This document shows positions 6,957 through 32,179 of a stretch of DNA of 32,179 nucleotides, in pieces. Both the position numbers and the translations under genes were made by a program. Origin of the DNA: Nitrospirota bacterium. GTDB lineage: Bacteria; Nitrospirota; Thermodesulfovibrionia; UBA6902; DSMQ01. Numbering within the stretch: position 1 is the stretch's first letter; every line of letters starts with the position of its first letter. Where the stretch lies: positions 1 through 32,179 of the forward strand of contig JACROO010000045.1 in assembly GCA_016214355.1 (NCBI GenBank), in the 5' to 3' direction. The notes below the pieces were generated by a model that was not told the origin of the DNA, searched no databases, and saw only the letters and a program-made list of their open reading frames with translations.

Positions 6957-9900
6957 ATGAAAAAATTCATTGGGCTTGACGCTGGTTCCGTAAGCGTAAA
7001 AATTGCTGTTTTAGACGCAGAAGGCAGCATCCTTGAAACTAAATATGTCCGCCACAAAGGAAAACCATTAACAGTCGCCTGTGACCTGTTAAGCGAAATC
7101 AACTGCCCGTATTCCCTCAGTATTACAGGCTCGGCAGGGAGGCTTATTGCGCAAATTTTCGGCATTGAACCGGTAAATGAGATAGTCGCACAGAGCTATT
7201 CAACCAAAAAGCTCTTCCCTCATATTAATACCGTCTTTGAAATGGGCGGCGAGGATTCAAAACTTATATTACTTGAAAACGGCAGGGTAAAAGAGTTTTC
7301 TATGAATTCCGTATGCGCAGCCGGTACGGGCTCCTTTCTTGACCAGCAGGCAGAGAGATTACGGTTAAGCATTGAGGAATTCAGCGAGATAGCCTTAAAG
7401 TCCGAAACCCCCCCGAGGATTGCAGGACGATGCAGTGTTTTCGCAAAGTCTGACATGATACATCTGCAGCAGATAGCAACCCCGATGGAAGATATAGTTG
7501 CAGGCCTCTGCTTTGCTGTTGCAAGGAATTTCAAAGGAAGTATTTGCAAAAACATGGCACTCACAGAGCCAGTAAGTTTTCAGGGCGGTGTGGCTTCAAA
7601 TAAAGGTGTCACAAAGGCTATTAAAGAAGTTTTTGGCTTTAAAGGCCTGCTCATCCCCGAGCATTATGCACTGATGCCTGCAATTGGTGCAGCCCTTAAT
7701 GACATGGAACAGGGGGGGGGAAATACCTATGACATTGAGAAACTCAAAGCATTTCTCTCTTCCCGGAAAAATGAGGACAGGGGACATGAACCACTGACAA
7801 AAGTTCATAGTTCACAGTTTACAGTTTACACTAAACAAACACCTACCTATCAACTGTCAACCGTCAACCGTCAACTGTCAACTAAAGCTTATCTTGGCAT
7901 TGACATTGGTTCAATAAGCACAAACCTTGCTGTTATTGACGAAGACGGCGGTCTCCTTGCAAAGAGATACCTGATGACTGCCGGCAGGCCTATTGAGGCA
8001 GTAAGACAGGGGCTTGCAGAGATAGGCGGGGAGATCGGAAATAATGTAAAGATAATAGGTGTGGGAACTACCGGGTCAGGAAGATACATGATTGCAGATT
8101 TTGTCGGAGCAGACATTGTAAAGAATGAAATAACTGCACAGGCAACTGCTGCTGTAGCGATAGACACGGAGGTTGACACAATTTTTGAGATTGGAGGGCA
8201 GGACTCAAAATATATTTCAATAAAGGACGGGGTAATCGTTGATTTTGAGATGAACAAGGCATGTGCCGCAGGGACAGGCTCTTTTATTGAGGAACAGGCA
8301 GAAAAACTTGACTTGTCAGTAAAGGAAGAGTTTAGCAAGATGGCTTTTGAATCCCGGAACCCCTGCGCCCTCGGCGAAAGATGCACTGTATTTATGGAAA
8401 ACTCCCTTCTCTCAAGACAGCAGAGGGGCATCCCGAAGGAAGACCTTGTTGCAGGGCTGTCTTACTCAATAGTACAGAACTACATTAATAGGGTTGTGGG
8501 TGACAAAAAGATAGGCGAGAAGATATTTTTTCAGGGCGGGGTAGCTTTTAACGAGGCGGTCGTTGCCGCATTTGAAAAATATCTTAATAAAAGCATTACC
8601 GTTCCGCCTCACCACGACGTAACAGGCGCAATAGGCATGGCGATTATAGCCAGAGGGTATATGAAAAACAAAAAGTCAGCGATTAGCAGTGAGCAGTTAG
8701 CAGTTAGTAAAAACGAACTAACAGCTAACAGCTATTCGCTAACTGCTGAGTCTTCTTTCAAGGGTTTTGATCTTTCCAGAAGAAATTATGAAATCAAATC
8801 CTTCGGGTGCAAAGGCTGTGAAAATCTCTGCGAGATAAACAGTGTACGGATAGAAGGAGAAAAAGACCCGCTTTTCTACGGAAGCAGATGCGAAAAATAT
8901 GATGTCAAGAGAAAGAAAAAATATTCTTCAAATATTGATATGCCCGACCTGTTTGCAGAAAGAGAGGACATCCTTACAAAAACACACAGGGAATATAAAG
9001 AAAGGTTCTCAGTTCCCAGTTCTCAGTTCCCAGTTCGTATCGGCATACCAAGGATATTCTTTTTCCATGATTTACTGCCCTTCTGGAGTACGCTCCTGTG
9101 GGAACTCGGATTTGAGGTTGAACTTTCGGATAAAACAACCAGACAGATAGTCAACAAAGGTGTAGAAAACATCCTCTCGGAGAGCTGTTTCCCTCATAAA
9201 GCCTCGCACGGGCACATAAAGAATTTAATTGAAAAAAATGTTGATGCCATTTTAATCCCGAGTTTTATAAACCTCAATTCTTCAATAGAGGCAATGCGCG
9301 GTTTTGCCTGCCCGTATGTTCAAACTATACCTTATATCGCAAGGGCAGCCTTTGGAAAAGCGGAAAACAGAATAAAATTTCTCAATCCCGTAGTTAATAA
9401 AGAATTAGGGGAAGACTTCCTGTTAAGTGAACTGCATAAAACATTACGCCACTACAATATTTCAAAACACAAGATTAAAAAAGCAGTTATAAAAGCGGAA
9501 AACGTGCAGGGAGAGTTCATTTCAGCGGTAAAAAACAGAGGGAAAAAAGTGCTGGGCAATCTCAATGGAAAAACGATTGTCATATTAGGACGTTCGTATA
9601 ATGCATTTGATTCCGGTATGAATCTTGACATTCCCAAAAAGCTGTCAGACCTCGGCGTTCTCTCCATCCCTATGGACTATCTGCCGTTAGAGGAAATTGA
9701 TATATCAAGTAAATGGCCGGGCATGTACTGGAGGTCAGGGCAGAATATTTTAAGGGCAGCAGAGATAATCAGGAATAATACGGACCTCTTTGCACTGTAT
9801 TTAGGGAATTTTTCCTGCGGTCCTGACTCTTTTATCCATAAATATTTTAAAGAGACAATCGGCAGCAAGCCTTTTCTTCAGATTGAGATTGATGAACACA

Positions 9901-11273
9901 GCGCAGATGCCGGTGTTATAACGCGGTGCGAGGCTTTTCTTGACAGCATTAGCAATATAAAAGCAGTTAGCAGTGAGCAGTTGGCGGTTAGTAAAGAACT
10001 AACTGCTAACTGCTATCCGCTATCCGCTAAATCGCCAACTATCTCTCGTAATTTACAAAGGCGTATTATATTTATACCACGGATGTCAGACCATGCATTG
10101 GGGATTGCTGCAGCCTTTGAGTCCTGCGGGGTTGACGCTGAGGTCTTGGATGCGCCTGATATTGAAACCGTGAAGGTCGGGAGACAATACATTTCAGGGA
10201 AAGAATGCTATCCATGCGTTATCACAACAGGGGACATGGTAAAAAAGGCGATATCAAAAGACTTTAATCCTTCAAGGGCTGCCTTTTTCATGCCGTCAGG
10301 CGCAGGACCGTGCCGTTTCGGGCAATATAATATCCTCCACAGGCTTGTTCTGAGTGAAGCAGGATTCCCGGATGTCCCGATATTTTCCCCCAACCAGGAC
10401 GCATCTTTTTACAGGGAATTAGGCATGGTCGGCAAGGACCTCACTAAACATGCATGGAAAGGCATTATTGCAATAGAACTGCTGATGAAATGTCTTCATG
10501 AAACAAGACCCTATGAAAGTAACAAAGGAGAAACCGAAAATATTTACAAAGAATATCTCGTAAAAATCAGCCGGAGCGTTAAAAGCCATAATGGCGCTAT
10601 GCATGAACTTTTGAGAGAAATGCAGAGGACATTTTCTGCAGTACCAAAAAATACCCGGAAAAAGCCCCTTGTCGGCATTGTCGGAGAAATCTTTGTCAGG
10701 CACAATGCCTTTTCAAATGAAGATATTATCAGAAAGATAGAGGCGCTGGGCGGTGAGGTCTGGCTTGCTCCCGTAGAAGAATGGCTTTATTATGTAAATC
10801 AGATGGGACTGCGCAAGGCAGTAAACAAATTCAGGAGTATGCCTTTTTCAAAAAAAGCTGCGTCAGAAACCTTAAGCATCTTTGTTACAGGACTTGTGCA
10901 AAAAAGGATTGAACATGAATTTTCAAAACCGTTTAACGGGTTTCTTAAAACAGTTAAGGAGCCTTCAACAAAAAAAATATTTGCAAATGCCTTACCATAC
11001 CTGCATAATTCTTTTGAAGGCGAGGCGATTCTGAGCATGGGCAAGGCGGTGGATTTTGTTCAAAGGGGAGCCTCTGGCATTATCAGCGTAATGCCTTTCG
11101 GCTGCATGCCGGGAACTATCGTAAGCGCCTTATTGAAAGGACTAAAACAGGATACGGACATTCCGTGCCTCAGCATCGCATATGACGGGGCAGAGGCAAC
11201 ATGCTCTGAGATACAGCTTGAGGCTTTTATGCATCAGGCGGCAGTGTTGTTAAATGGCGCAAAAAGAAGATGA
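6957..11273 (+). CDS. Acyl-CoA dehydratase activase fusion: two BcrA/BadF/HgdC ATPase domains + DUF2229-like + HgdB-like region
   Basis: Two activase copies (KKFIGLDAGSVSVKIAVLD...CAAGTGSFLDQQAERL and YLGIDIGSISTNLAVIDEDG...CAAGTGSFIEEQAEKL), then GIPRIFFFHDLLPFWSTLLWELGFEVELSDKT and a Cys-containing C-terminal region (SGKECYPCVITTGDMVKK; FGCMPGTIVSALLKGL). Confidence 0.92.
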   Translation: MKKFIGLDAGSVSVKIAVLDAEGSILETKYVRHKGKPLTVACDLLSEINCPYSLSITGSAGRLIAQIFGIEPVNEIVAQSYSTKKLFPHINTVFEMGGEDSKLILLENGRVKEFSMNSVCAAGTGSFLDQQAERLRLSIEEFSEIALKSETPPRIAGRCSVFAKSDMIHLQQIATPMEDIVAGLCFAVARNFKGSICKNMALTEPVSFQGGVASNKGVTKAIKEVFGFKGLLIPEHYALMPAIGAALNDMEQGGGNTYDIEKLKAFLSSRKNEDRGHEPLTKVHSSQFTVYTKQTPTYQLSTVNRQLSTKAYLGIDIGSISTNLAVIDEDGGLLAKRYLMTAGRPIEAVRQGLAEIGGEIGNNVKIIGVGTTGSGRYMIADFVGADIVKNEITAQATAAVAIDTEVDTIFEIGGQDSKYISIKDGVIVDFEMNKACAAGTGSFIEEQAEKLDLSVKEEFSKMAFESRNPCALGERCTVFMENSLLSRQQRGIPKEDLVAGLSYSIVQNYINRVVGDKKIGEKIFFQGGVAFNEAVVAAFEKYLNKSITVPPHHDVTGAIGMAIIARGYMKNKKSAISSEQLAVSKNELTANSYSLTAESSFKGFDLSRRNYEIKSFGCKGCENLCEINSVRIEGEKDPLFYGSRCEKYDVKRKKKYSSNIDMPDLFAEREDILTKTHREYKERFSVPSSQFPVRIGIPRIFFFHDLLPFWSTLLWELGFEVELSDKTTRQIVNKGVENILSESCFPHKASHGHIKNLIEKNVDAILIPSFINLNSSIEAMRGFACPYVQTIPYIARAAFGKAENRIKFLNPVVNKELGEDFLLSELHKTLRHYNISKHKIKKAVIKAENVQGEFISAVKNRGKKVLGNLNGKTIVILGRSYNAFDSGMNLDIPKKLSDLGVLSIPMDYLPLEEIDISSKWPGMYWRSGQNILRAAEIIRNNTDLFALYLGNFSCGPDSFIHKYFKETIGSKPFLQIEIDEHSADAGVITRCEAFLDSISNIKAVSSEQLAVSKELTANCYPLSAKSPTISRNLQRRIIFIPRMSDHALGIAAAFESCGVDAEVLDAPDIETVKVGRQYISGKECYPCVITTGDMVKKAISKDFNPSRAAFFMPSGAGPCRFGQYNILHRLVLSEAGFPDVPIFSPNQDASFYRELGMVGKDLTKHAWKGIIAIELLMKCLHETRPYESNKGETENIYKEYLVKISRSVKSHNGAMHELLREMQRTFSAVPKNTRKKPLVGIVGEIFVRHNAFSNEDIIRKIEALGGEVWLAPVEEWLYYVNQMGLRKAVNKFRSMPFSKKAASETLSIFVTGLVQKRIEHEFSKPFNGFLKTVKEPSTKKIFANALPYLHNSFEGEAILSMGKAVDFVQRGASGIISVMPFGCMPGTIVSALLKGLKQDTDIPCLSIAYDGAEATCSEIQLEAFMHQAAVLLNGAKRR
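7803..7882. repeat. Heptad-stutter inverted element, in frame in the activase linker
   Basis: Left GTTCATA GTTCACA GTTTACA GTTTACA; right TATCAAC TGTCAAC CGTCAAC CGTCAAC TGTCAAC; encodes VHSSQFTVYTKQTPTYQLSTVNRQLSTK. Confidence 0.92.
8681..8751. repeat. Heptad-stutter inverted element, in frame
   Basis: Left GATTAGC AGTGAGC AGTTAGC AGTTAGT; right ACTAACA GCTAACA GCTATTC GCTAACT GCTGAGT; encodes ISSEQLAVSKNELTANSYSLTAES. Confidence 0.92.
9006..9036. repeat. Heptad-stutter tandem (single arm), in frame
   Basis: TTCTCAG TTCCCAG TTCTCAG TTCCCAG TTC; encodes FSVPSSQFPV. Confidence 0.9.
9963..10032. repeat. Heptad-stutter inverted element, in frame
   Basis: Left GCAGTTA GCAGTGA GCAGTTG GCGGTTA; right ACTAACT GCTAACT GCTATCC GCTATCC GCTAAAT; encodes AVSSEQLAVSKELTANCYPLSAKS. 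Confidence 0.92.
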
Positions 11274-24464: not shown

Positions 24465-24552
24465 TGTCATTCCTGCGGAAGCAGGAATCCATGGCTTTGT
24501 CATGCTGAATTTATTTCAGCATCTCTGTATTCCCGCCTTAGCGGGAATGACA
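24465..24552. repeat. Nested palindromic repeat between DUF362 and the GHMP/UDPGP gene
   Basis: TGTCATTCCTGCGGAAGCAGGAATCCA ... ATGCTGAA-TTTAT-TTCAGCAT ... ATTCCCGCCTTAGCGGGAATGACA. Confidence 0.92.
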
Positions 24553-27787: not shown

Positions 27788-27891
27788 TCTTGGTTTATAT
27801 TATAACCATGCAGTTCTTTGGTAGGCAAGTTGTTAGTTTGCGTCCATCTCCAAAAAAGTTGGGATAATCTTAATTCAAAGAATCAAGTAAA

Positions 27892-27936
27892 AGTTAGCAG
27901 TTAACAATTATCATTTTAAATTGCTAAATGCTAACT
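27892..27936. repeat. Heptad-stutter inverted element with shared AT core in the loop
   Basis: AGTTAGC AGTTAAC [AATTATCATTTTAAATT] GCTAAAT GCTAACT. Confidence 0.9.
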
Positions 27937-28037
27937 TTGACCTTATATCTGCTCCCTTGCCATGAGAACAAATCCTTTTGACCCATCTGCATCACCGGTA
28001 GTGAAATGAGGATACTTTTGCAAAGAGTCAAAACCGT

Positions 28038-28796: not shown

Positions 28797-29387
28797 ATGA
28801 ACACAAGAACACAGGAACTCATGAATTTTTTTCAGAGCCATGGCGGGGTGGCCCGTTTTTCTACTGTTCTGAAGGCTGGATTTCATCCTGATTCGCTTAT
28901 TGCTCTTGAAAAAGAGGGGAAGGTTGAAAAGATTGCCCGGGGCCTTTACCGGGTGGCCAATTATACCCATGGTACACATCCGGATCTTGTTATTGCATCA
29001 CTTCAGGCACCCAGAGGCGTTATTTGTCTTCTTTCTGCTCTGTTTTTTTATGATGCAACAAGCGAGATCCCAAAGTATGTAGCCCTGGCTATTCCGCAAG
29101 GTAGTCATGCAAATAGAATTAAGTATCCACCGGTAAGATTTTGCCGTTTTGCGTCTAAAGCATGGAAAGCAGGGATTGAAGAGCATGAAATTGAAAGACA
29201 GTATAGCCTCGCTAAGACGATTGCCGATTGTTTTAAATTCCGTAATAAAATAGGTATGGATGTCGCCAGAGATGCCCTCAAGGTTGCTGTTACAGAAAAA
29301 AACATAACTCCAAAAGAAATTATGAAATACGCCAAAATTTGCCGTGTTGATAGCATTATAAAACCAATACTGGAAGCTATGATATGA
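28797..29387 (+). CDS. abiEi: AbiEi-family antitoxin (type IV TA)
   Basis: FFQSHGGVARFSTVLKAGFHPDSLIALEKEGKVEKIARGLYRVA (wHTH) + AbiEi C-terminal-like region ERQYSLAKTIADCFKFRNKIGMDVARDALK; overlaps abiEii by ATGA. Confidence 0.85.
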   Translation: MNTRTQELMNFFQSHGGVARFSTVLKAGFHPDSLIALEKEGKVEKIARGLYRVANYTHGTHPDLVIASLQAPRGVICLLSALFFYDATSEIPKYVALAIPQGSHANRIKYPPVRFCRFASKAWKAGIEEHEIERQYSLAKTIADCFKFRNKIGMDVARDALKVAVTEKNITPKEIMKYAKICRVDSIIKPILEAMI

Positions 29388-30298
29388 AAAAGGATATTAA
29401 GAATATAAAAGCTTCTGTTCGCGCCCGTCTTCAAGATAAAGCGAAGGAAGCTGCTCAGCCATTTTCAGAAATTCTGCAATATTATGGGATGGAGAGATTC
29501 CTTTATAGGTTTAGCCGTTCTAAATATGCGGATAAATTTATCCTGAAAGGCGCGCTTATGTTTACAGTTTGGCAAGTTCCACAAAGACGGACAACGCTTG
29601 ATATAGATTTCTCAGCACGCTATGACAATCAGATAGCAACTATTGAGAAAGTAATCAAAGATGTATGTAAGGTTTCGGTGACTCCAGACGGGCTTGTTTT
29701 TGATTCGCAGACAGTAAAGGGACAGAAAATAAAAGAAGATGCTGATTACGAAGGCATACGTGTTAAATTTAGAGGTTTTTTAGAACGCTCACGTATCCCG
29801 ATGCAAATTGATATTGCTTTTGGCGATATCATCTATCCAAAACCTAAAGTTATTGATTATCCTGTTATTTTAGATTTTCCTAAACCCCATCTTAAAGGAT
29901 ATCCCGCAGAAAGTGTTGTTAGCGAAAAATTTGAAGCTATGGTTAAGTTAGGTCTTTTAAACAGTCGCATGAAGGATTTCTATGATATTTGGCTCATGAT
30001 GCGTCAGTTTGATTTTGATGGTCTAAAACTCGTTGAAGCTTTAAAAGGAACCTTTGAACATCGTAAAACTCCTTTGCCAGAGCATAAACCATTATTCGCT
30101 GAAGAAATTTACGATGAAAAATCCGATCGCCAAACATTATGGAAGGCTTTTCTAAAAAAGGGAGATATTAAATACGTACCAGAAAAGTTGCGCACAACAG
30201 CCACAGAGATAGAACAATTTCTTATTAACCCGCTTGATGCAATTTATAGAAGCCAAGAGTTTAGCAAAGAATGGAAATCCGCAGGACCGTGGAAATGA
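29384..30298 (+). CDS. abiEii: AbiEii nucleotidyltransferase toxin
   Basis: FILKGALMFTVWQVPQRRTTLDIDFSARYDNQ (NTase GG/DxD-like) ... YPAESVVSEKFEAMVKLGLLNSRMKDFYDIWLM. Confidence 0.9.
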   Translation: MKKDIKNIKASVRARLQDKAKEAAQPFSEILQYYGMERFLYRFSRSKYADKFILKGALMFTVWQVPQRRTTLDIDFSARYDNQIATIEKVIKDVCKVSVTPDGLVFDSQTVKGQKIKEDADYEGIRVKFRGFLERSRIPMQIDIAFGDIIYPKPKVIDYPVILDFPKPHLKGYPAESVVSEKFEAMVKLGLLNSRMKDFYDIWLMMRQFDFDGLKLVEALKGTFEHRKTPLPEHKPLFAEEIYDEKSDRQTLWKAFLKKGDIKYVPEKLRTTATEIEQFLINPLDAIYRSQEFSKEWKSAGPWK

Positions 30299-30409
30299 GA
30301 AATGATGAAAGAAGAAGTATAGTATAAGATAATGAAAACCGCCTTATACATAAGAGTATCCACCGAAGACCAAGCCAAAGAAGGCTATTCTCTTGAAGTC
30401 CAGAGGGAG

Positions 30410-30450
30410 CCCCTATAGATTCTTTCAGAATCTAAACACAGGGATAGATA
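30410..30450. mobile_element. 41-nt hairpin insertion in the recombinase gene
   Basis: CCCCTAT-AG-ATTCT-TTC-AGAAT-CT-AAAC-ACAGGG + atagata. Confidence 0.7.
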
Positions 30451-30480
30451 TATCTTGAGTCCTTTGCTGAAAGGGAAGGG

Positions 30481-30560
30481 CACCCCCATGGTTTTGATAC
30501 CCGTAGTTTTCCTTATGGAAAACATAGCACGGGTACAGGACAAAACAAAATATGGGGACG
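30481..30560. mobile_element. 80-nt nested hairpin insertion in the recombinase gene
   Basis: Outer CCCCAT-G-GTTTTG...CAAAAC-AAAAT-ATGGGG containing inner TACCCGT-AG-TTTTCC-TTAT-GGAAAA-C-ATAGC-ACGGGTA. Confidence 0.7.
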
Positions 30561-30668
30561 TATGAGATTTATAAAATCTATCAGGATGATGGGATAAGCG
30601 GCTATTCTACCGAACGTCCTGCTTTTTAATTAAAACCCTTGCTCAAATATTGTAAAATATCTGTTACC

Positions 30669-30959
30669 ATGAGTTTTAAACGTAATGCTGTGTTTTTCGT
30701 ATATATCGTTAAATGTGCTAACGGAACATATTACACCGGTTACACAAATAATCTCGAGAACCGAATCAAACTACACAATAAAGGGGATGGCGCAAAGTAT
30801 TTAAAAGGAAAGTTGCCGGTCCAGTTGGTTTATGCTAAAGAATATAAATATTATAAAAATGCGTTGCATGCTGAGAGGAATTTAAAGAAGTTGACTAGGA
30901 AAGAGAAGGAGGTATTAATTTCGAACTATGAGCGCACAAATGGAAATTTATCCCTATAG
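30669..30959 (+). CDS. GIY-YIG nuclease superfamily protein (UPF0213/YhbQ-like)
   Basis: VYIVKCANGTYYTGYTNNLENRIKLHNKGDGAKYLKGKLPVQLVYAKEYKYYKNALHAERNLKKLTRKEKEVLI; the stop TAG is supplied by the downstream hairpin. Confidence 0.92.
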   Translation: MSFKRNAVFFVYIVKCANGTYYTGYTNNLENRIKLHNKGDGAKYLKGKLPVQLVYAKEYKYYKNALHAERNLKKLTRKEKEVLISNYERTNGNLSL

Positions 30960-30985
30960 ATTCATTCTGAATCTATACATAGGGA
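30951..30985. repeat. Bulged hairpin E
   Basis: TCCCTAT-AG-ATTC-ATTCT-GAAT-CT-ATAC-ATAGGGA. Confidence 0.85.
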
Positions 30986-31002
30986 TTAGAAAAAAAGGTT
31001 GC

Positions 31003-31038
31003 CCCCGTAGTTTTGCTATTGCAAAACTGGACACGGGG
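31003..31038. repeat. Bulged hairpin A
   Basis: CCCCGT-AG-TTTTGC-TATT-GCAAAA-CT-GGAC-ACGGGG. Confidence 0.9.
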
Positions 31039-31098
31039 ACACCCATGTCTAAGTTTTCAGGTGGTATTTTATGAGATACTACTCCAGAATGTTTAGGT

Positions 31099-31139
31099 GC
31101 TCCCACAGATTTGCCGCTGCAAATCTAGGACGTGGGAGC
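31099..31139. repeat. Bulged hairpin B
   Basis: GCTCCCAC-AG-ATTTGC-CGCT-GCAAAT-CT-AGGAC-GTGGGAGC. Confidence 0.9.
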
Positions 31140-31194
31140 AACCGTGTCCAGGTTTTGAGGAAAATATGAAATATTTTCTCAAAACCTACGGTTG
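31139..31194. repeat. Bulged hairpin F overlapping the miaB start (opposite orientation)
   Basis: CAACCGT-GTCC-AG-GTTTTGAGGAAAATAT-gaa-ATATTTTCTCAAAAC-CT-ACGGTTG. Confidence 0.9.
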
Positions 31195-32179
31195 TCAGAT
31201 GAATGTCCACGACTCTGAGAAGATTGCAGGTATTCTCTCGGAATCAGGATATAATGCGGCAGATTCTGTCACAGATGCTGATGTGATAGTTCTGAACACA
31301 TGCAGTGTGAGGCAAAAGGCAGAGCAGAAGTTTTTTAGTGAACTGGGAAGGCTGAAAGCAGAAAAAAAGAAAAATCCTGATTTAAAAATTGCTGTTGCCG
31401 GCTGTATTGCACAGCAAAGGGGCAGCGATATATTTGAACGTTTCCCTTATGTTGATTTTATTTTTGGTCCTCAGAATATTGATAGTCTTGAGAAGTGGAT
31501 ATCAGACAAACCACAGGCAATAGACGCCAGACAACAGACATCAGACTACGCAGTACGCGGTACGAGATACGCAGAACAGAATCCTATAAAAAGGGAAGGG
31601 CAGGTCAAGGCATGGGTAGCTATAATGCACGGTTGTAACAACTTTTGTTCGTACTGTGTTGTGCCTTATACCCGCGGCAGGGAAAAAAGCAGGCACAGCA
31701 TGGACATTCTTAATGAGATTAGGGAAATTGCAGTGCAGGGGTTTAAAGAGGTGGCACTTCTTGGGCAGAATGTTAATTCCTATGGCAAAAATCTTCCTGA
31801 AAACATAGACTTTCCAGATTTACTTAAAGTAATCCATGAGATAAATGACATACAAAGGATTAGATTTATCACCTCTCACCCTCGGGACCTTTCAGAAAAA
31901 CTGATAAAAACAATGCGTGACCTGCCTAAAGTATGTGAGCATATGCACCTGCCCATACAGGCAGGCTCTGACAAAATCTTATCACTTATGAACAGGGGGT
32001 ACTCATACATTCAGTACAAAGAGAAAATTGACATGCTCAGAACAGAAATCCCTGATATTGCTATAACAACAGATATAATCGTTGGTTTCCCCGGGGAGAC
32101 TGATGATGATTTTGAATGTACAGTTAACGCCTTGAAGGAGATAGAGTTTGACGGTATTTTTGCCTTTAAATATTCAAAA
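31166..32179 (+). CDS. miaB: tRNA-2-methylthio-N6-dimethylallyladenosine synthase (partial, runs off the window)
   Basis: MKYFLKTYGCQMNVHDSEKIAGIL...NTCSVRQKAEQKFFSELG...AWVAIMHGCNNFCSYCVVPYTRGREKSR...HLPIQAGSDKILSLMNRGY...TDIIVGFPGET. Confidence 0.97.
   Translation, partial: MKYFLKTYGCQMNVHDSEKIAGILSESGYNAADSVTDADVIVLNTCSVRQKAEQKFFSELGRLKAEKKKNPDLKIAVAGCIAQQRGSDIFERFPYVDFIFGPQNIDSLEKWISDKPQAIDARQQTSDYAVRGTRYAEQNPIKREGQVKAWVAIMHGCNNFCSYCVVPYTRGREKSRHSMDILNEIREIAVQGFKEVALLGQNVNSYGKNLPENIDFPDLLKVIHEINDIQRIRFITSHPRDLSEKLIKTMRDLPKVCEHMHLPIQAGSDKILSLMNRGYSYIQYKEKIDMLRTEIPDIAITTDIIVGFPGETDDDFECTVNALKEIEFDGIFAFKYSK
31522..31577. repeat. Heptad-stutter tandem, in frame in the miaB linker
   Basis: AGACGCC AGACAAC AGACATC AGACTAC GCAGTAC GCGGTAC GAGATAC GCAGAAC; encodes DARQQTSDYAVRGTRYAEQ. 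Confidence 0.9.

Follow-up and report, generated by a model that had tools for sequence, protein, structure and literature searches.

The window analysed here (the whole stretch of 32,179 nt, from the Nitrospirota genome G000, a bin of 1.85 Mb in 189 contigs that is 85% complete) contains near its right end a compact series of genes, all on the forward strand, interspersed with short hairpins. The series begins with an AbiE pair, comprising an AbiEi antitoxin-like gene at 28797-29387 (Pfam AbiEi_4, E 6.6e-8) and an AbiEii nucleotidyltransferase toxin-like gene at 29384-30298 (Pfam AbiEii, E 5.3e-41). Downstream of this pair lie the first 58 codons of a large serine recombinase (30332-30629), interrupted by a hairpin insertion of 41 nt at 30410-30450 and by a composite insertion of 80 nt at 30481-30560. 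These are followed by a gene for a GIY-YIG nuclease domain at 30639-30959 (Pfam GIY-YIG, E 7.2e-18), which takes its stop codon from the hairpin that follows. Three further hairpins of the same family, recognized by the covariance model R1 described below, are found beyond the recombinase: one overlaps the 3' end of the GIY-YIG gene (30950-30989, 46.5 bits), one lies in the gap between this gene and miaB (31001-31043, 53.6 bits) and one lies just upstream of miaB (31099-31142, 46.5 bits). The 5' part of miaB (31166-32179; UPF0004 and Radical_SAM), which runs off the window, is the likely integration site of the recombinase element. Both in the window (31040-31200) and in an FCPU426 genome (L174:1-600), the beginning of miaB is found again upstream of the gene, once as an inverted copy that has a bulge of GTC(C) and, before this, as a decayed direct copy, as if the start of the gene had been duplicated by an integration event. 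That the hairpins might constitute a miaB-specific element was ruled out, as no hairpin is present upstream of miaB in 21 relatives, including BMS3Bbin09 (G018). Elsewhere in the window, two palindromes that face each other at 24465-24552 (TGTCATTCCTGCGGAAGCAGGAATCCA / TGTATTCCCGCCTTAGCGGGAATGACA) have the appearance of a head-head dimer of REPs belonging to the known CGTC (dRS3-like) class. Inverted repeats of the AGCAGTTAGC type occur in frame at 8678-8747 and 9962-10030 inside an ORF of 1438 aa (6957-11273), to which they add peptides such as SSEQLAVSKNELTANSYSLTAES, and similar repeats are seen at 27882-27946.

Read without excision, the recombinase frame gives MKTALYIRVSTEDQAKEGYSLEVQREPL followed by the first of several stops within 30332-30629. 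Removal of the 41 and 80 nt yields MKTALYIRVSTEDQAKEGYSLEVQREYLESFAEREGYEIYKIYQDDGISGYSTERPAF followed by a stop, i.e. 58 residues that are colinear with the TP901-1 integrase (E 2.8e-10; TnpX was also matched) and share 84% amino acid identity with the intact recombinase of G053, a genome of the same class. The original prediction that deleting these two segments restores the N-terminus of a serine recombinase is thus borne out. The predicted folding energies of the two insertions are -10.8 and -32.1 kcal/mol, respectively. The first matches R1 at 30409-30448 (44.4 bits), and the second is made up of two hairpins, one within the loop of the other: the outer one is formed by CACCCCCATGGTTTTG...CAAAACAAAATATGGGGACG and the inner one, at 30497-30539, matches R1 with 52.1 bits. 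The same prediction had described both insertions as codon-exact and as placed before a TAT codon, and neither property could be established. In an enumeration of all excisions, the frame at site 1 is kept by cuts at 30409, 30410 and 30411 (equivalent placements 30409-30449 and 30411-30451), and at site 2 cuts at 30480 or 30481 give an identical product (equivalent placement 30480-30559). At site 1 the cut at 30409 produces GAA TAT, with GAA being the codon of both G053 and BMS3Bbin08 (G007), and the cut at 30411, which has the best score of the site-1 cuts, produces CAT for histidine exactly as in G053. As these cuts, shifted by 1-2 nt, fit equally well or better, neither label can be claimed, and codon-exactness would in any case mean little because the insert lengths are not multiples of 3. 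The accompanying statement that there is no obvious target-site duplication holds insofar as no repeat is visible at the ends of either insertion, with site 2 having a 1-nt placement ambiguity only; a very short duplication may nevertheless be present, because the ends of the elements are uncertain by 1-2 nt. The G000 gene is a dead remnant: its frame ends after 58 codons, nothing resembling the remaining ~490 residues lies downstream, and the window contains only this N-terminal remnant of the recombinase type.

The G053 protein (L007; 544 aa), the closest intact homolog found, contains Resolvase, Recombinase and zinc-ribbon domains and is a large serine recombinase of the phage integrase type; phage integrases are 43-47% identical to it. 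Its gene has neither hairpin and shows about 78% nucleotide identity to the excised G000 sequence. The alignment to an intact homolog that had been proposed as a check therefore confirms the insertions, even if their exact boundaries are not unique. About 27 further homologs align across both sites without an insertion, and recombinase homologs on plasmids and phages provide no closer empty site because they are at most 47% identical. A related, decayed recombinase is encoded by G007, which belongs to the same order but to a different family. This allele is empty at site 1, and at site 2 it carries, at the same codon as in G000, the hairpin CACCCCCATGGTTTTG-ctacct-CAAAATAAAATATGGGGACG (L035:555-596). 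The outer arms of the two genomes show one difference, and the inner hairpin is present in G000 only, where it replaces the loop. Given this match of the outer arms and the restriction of the inner hairpin to G000, the sequences suggest that the outer hairpin is most likely a single insertion inherited by both copies, and that the inner one was most likely acquired afterwards by the G000 lineage, or else lost from G007. Together, the empty sites of G053, the empty site 1 of G007 and its outer hairpin devoid of the inner one make this locus the before/after record of genuine insertions that had been anticipated. Some 20 codons before site 2, at L035:380-495, G007 additionally bears a threefold nested hairpin of its own. 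In this genome a further copy of the family disrupts another recombinase remnant, which is located directly 3' of an AbiEii gene (L035:2839-2960). On this contig (G007:C33) the AbiEii gene directly upstream of the broken recombinase is a paralogous one (L035:1977-2834) and is itself preceded by an unassigned ORF, the whole arrangement spanning L035:1217-2960. Since the G007 allele contains its own in-frame TAG even without the hairpin and soon loses its frame, these recombinase remnants are dead with or without the hairpins.

All these hairpins follow a common plan, ~40 nt in total, consisting of a CCC-rich outer stem that begins with CCC, an inner stem of about 7-8 bp (often AGATTTGC or AGTTTTGC), a loop, the returning inner stem, a purine-rich 3' bulge of 4-5 nt (GGAC, AAGAC and similar) and the returning outer stem. 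The two-stem/3'-bulge motif occurs four times in the window, compared to 2, 1 and 0 occurrences when the entire scanned sequence of >400 kb was subjected to Markov shuffling. We captured this plan in the covariance model R1 (43 positions, 15 pairs, rough E-values), for which ten copies of the G000 and G007 genomes served as the training set. Genome-wide counts with R1 recovered five copies in G000, all at 30.41-31.14 kb of the window and thus forming one cluster within 750 bp. Among the 61 relatives examined, which like all other genomes considered here are probably metagenome bins, G007 has 38 copies, G018 has 36 (39 matches at E<=1, in a genome that is 92% complete) and G042 and G013 have one each, with no copy in the 56 that remain after these four and G000. 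Under stricter filters, 396 genomes of the phylum yielded matches in G000, G007 and G018 only. A DNA pattern run over GTDB genomes added one genome each of Omnitrophota (G416), Desantisbacteria and FCPU426, in which R1 detects 18, 27 and 2 copies, respectively; as this pattern (CCCGYAG...RGACRYGGG) was deliberately strict, the distribution obtained is to be read as a minimum. Viral contigs are devoid of the family pattern. In 98 distinct copies 92.1% of the pair cells are paired and 13 of the 15 pairs change on both sides. The covariation score of this set is 0.417, compared to 0.155 for shuffled and <=0.082 for slid pairings, in an alignment fitted to the structure, which favours the score; ten copies aligned with MAFFT gave 0.444 versus 0.189. 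Rfam searches gave no match at E<=1 in window 30300-31250 and only tRNAs at nine loci, and a non-exhaustive search of the literature found no description of such hairpins. The family is apparently previously undescribed, and is present in at least four candidate bacterial phyla.

The majority of the copies are located in tight intergenic gaps, at median distances of 54 and 58 nt from their neighbours. Of the 45 copies situated between co-directional genes, 40 point in the sense direction (P about 4e-8 under an assumption of independence that the copies do not fully satisfy, and with crudely called ORFs), as do all hairpins in the three recombinase remnants. A few copies are in frame inside apparently intact genes, namely three genes of G018 and G007. 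The cobyrinate synthase of BMS3Bbin09 (G018:C64, L136:1295-2815) has a 48-nt hairpin (FPTDSPFGTNLRHGDF) in frame between its CbiA and GATase domains, the tRNA pseudouridine synthase TruA of BMS3Bbin08 (G007:C32, L140:664-1665) has an in-frame insertion of ~69 residues after GWQVQN that contains three tandem hairpins, and a radical-SAM/DUF2344 protein (L153) has two copies in a linker. In TruA and the cobyrinate synthase the hairpins thereby add new peptide segments to apparently intact proteins. Insertion of one copy into another is likewise recurrent: of 118 copies, 23 are immediately enclosed by a stem of >=6 bp. The corresponding number was 5.5 when the flanks were shuffled, with a maximum of 13 among 200 shuffles, and 3.3 for randomly chosen places. 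While 15 of these 23 cases come from G007, where most represent one amplified composite, independent cases are found in G000, Omnitrophota and Desantisbacteria. Nesting within the family reaches three deep, and in G018 copies also occur within the 3' bulge of the parent (L068, L071, L129, L134). Finally, six copies of one 41-nt hairpin, identical bar one tail base, are found in unrelated contexts of G007 (L142-L147), which favours movement over local formation.

We consider it highly probable that the insertions in the recombinase are dispersed, non-autonomous hairpin elements of a REP/RPE-like kind, which came as passengers of an AbiE/serine-integrase element at miaB or had been inserted before its transfer. 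Such elements would make clean insertions that show no visible target-site duplication, and would land in DNA that is not essential: narrow gaps between genes, genes undergoing decay, the loops or linkers of a few proteins, and also the loops and bulges of copies already in place. Insertion into earlier copies would generate nested composites that could then be copied as units, and mobility would probably be conferred in trans by a separate enzyme. An integrative element with the AbiE pair and a phage-type large serine integrase would have integrated at miaB, bringing the hairpins from a donor that might have been a hairpin-rich genome related to BMS3Bbin08; alternatively, they might have inserted into the integrative element prior to its transfer. 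Arrival as passengers appears most likely because all five G000 copies lie beside the AbiE pair and the integrase remnant at miaB. Horizontal arrival of the hairpins in G000 is suggested by this clustering and by gene order rather than by a tree: the recombinase ORF of G053 ends inside the miaB start, and the FCPU426 genome displays the order GIY-YIG - hairpin - miaB.

With respect to the mode of movement, both the lack of target duplications and the use of hairpin loops as targets would be explained if the copies were REPs whose mobility depends on a Y1 (HUH) transposase of the REP-associated type (RAYT/TnpA-REP) that acts on single-stranded DNA. Such single-stranded chemistry is established for IS200/IS605 and fits the clean insertions and the use of loops, and Y1_Tnp genes are present in G000 (4), G007 (17), G042 (5), G417 (10) and G418 (7). 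However, we found none in the hairpin-rich G018 or in the Omnitrophota genome with 18 copies, a point weakened by the incompleteness of the bins, and the 26 Y1 loci of G000, G007 and G042 contain no family copy at E below 0.1 in flanks of up to about 1.5 kb. Moreover, Y1 loci of G042 and G007 (L099, L101, L103, L117) are flanked by palindromes of their own, of the ATCGAGGTTGAACCTCGAT type, that constitute a separate REP family, and the RY of the apparent GTAG in the present hairpins is paired and covarying. After the search of seven genomes and of the flanks of these 26 genes, RAYT/Y1 mobilization is unsupported and we regard it as unlikely; no mobilizing enzyme was found. A different route, in which insertion is RNA-mediated or transcription-coupled and a hairpin RNA or an R-loop acts as the intermediate that leads to sense landing, would account for the 40 of 45 sense copies. 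It would also account for the uniformly sense hairpins of the recombinase remnants, in which selection by the gene should be absent, and accords with an RNA fold that is well paired and asymmetric. The same bias is, however, expected from selection on mRNA, or from a lagging-strand preference combined with genes that are co-directional with replication, and it was counted on non-independent copies and crude ORFs; hence we find this route distinctly doubtful. We are no less sceptical of the bolder proposal of a mobile DNA that spreads across phyla without Y1, lands in the loops and bulges of its own copies and inserts in the sense orientation, possibly via an RNA or transcription-coupled intermediate. 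If true, it would define a class of mobile DNA whose members consist of nothing but a bulged hairpin.

The remaining explanations fare less well. Quasi-palindromes do arise by template switching or fold-back copying during replication, and in the vicinity of miaB some hairpin arms are similar to the start of this gene in inverted orientation. Nevertheless, a purely local origin of this type is quite improbable in view of the near-identical copies and whole composites at unrelated loci of one genome, the 3' bulge common to unrelated copies in several phyla, and the recombinase inserts, which have no template in the flanks. The restoration of the frame by excision could be taken to mean that the hairpins are removed or skipped at expression, by programmed ribosomal bypass or in an intron-like manner, leaving a functional recombinase. 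Yet neither site has a matched pair of take-off and landing codons, the gene comes to a stop at 58 codons, an in-frame TAG is present in the G007 allele irrespective of the hairpin, and the family is mostly intergenic. In a dead gene in which neither insertion maintains the frame, bypass or splicing receives no support and is extremely improbable. The fragmentation and incompleteness of the G000 bin might raise the suspicion of an assembly or binning artefact, but in G007, which was binned separately, the site-2 hairpin occupies the identical codon and differs in its nesting, and several assemblies contain the family, rendering this concern practically negligible.

Understood as dispersed, non-autonomous elements, these hairpins bear on the question of how palindromic repeats of very small size can be mobile in the absence of an accompanying transposase. 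The family furnishes precise before/after alleles, including the insertion of one hairpin into another, in named genomes of several candidate phyla. Because two hairpin-rich genomes are without the usual suspect enzyme and the sense-strand bias is strong, hypotheses on mobilization become testable.

Several known systems invite comparison with this family. Programmed bypass elements, such as those of T4 gene 60 and the byps of yeast mitochondria, are short hairpins that interrupt coding sequences; the present hairpins differ in having no matched take-off and landing codons, no intact downstream frame, a dead host gene and a mainly intergenic distribution. Unlike classical MITEs, they show no visible target-site duplication at either insertion. 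The small dispersed repeats of cyanobacteria studied by Elhai et al. are reportedly very small, with clean presence/absence and no identified transposase; the present family resembles them in its clean presence/absence, a likeness at the level of description rather than of sequence. The GTAG/CGTC-tagged REPs are short intergenic palindromes close to gene ends, which sometimes supply stop codons or lie in frame in genes, including truA; some are found inside larger palindromes, and the CGTC REPs are without a known transposase (Di Nocera et al. 2013, PMC3733652, whose text does not mention "Nitrospir-"). The present family is likewise a short palindrome scattered in intergenic DNA. In contrast to the GTAG REPs, it has no unpaired terminal GTAG, the two variable positions of the GTAG-like stretch being paired with the 3' strand and covarying (pairs 7-85 and 8-84: GC, AU, CG, UA), and no copy at E below 0.1 accompanies the 26 Y1 genes whose flanks were searched, the element-rich G018 and G416 being without Y1. 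It also has none of the hallmarks of the CGTC REPs, namely a terminal CGTC, one stem of 8-9 bp starting with AT and a CCA tail. Instead of a single stem it has two stacked stems with a 3' bulge, and its nested copies belong to the same family. The Rickettsia palindromic elements (RPE) are palindromic repeats that enter protein-coding genes in frame (reviewed in PMC10969869), as a few of the present hairpins do in the cobyrinate synthase, TruA and the radical-SAM/DUF2344 protein. Compared by description rather than by sequence, the present elements differ from RPE in their length of about 40 nt as against about 150 bp, in being mostly intergenic and in disrupting the frame of the recombinase (insertions of 41 and 80 nt). 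Thus, the tagged REPs and the RPE are the nearest described kinds, yet the missing unpaired tag, the two stems with a 3' bulge and the self-nesting indicate that this hairpin family is neither a GTAG nor a CGTC REP.
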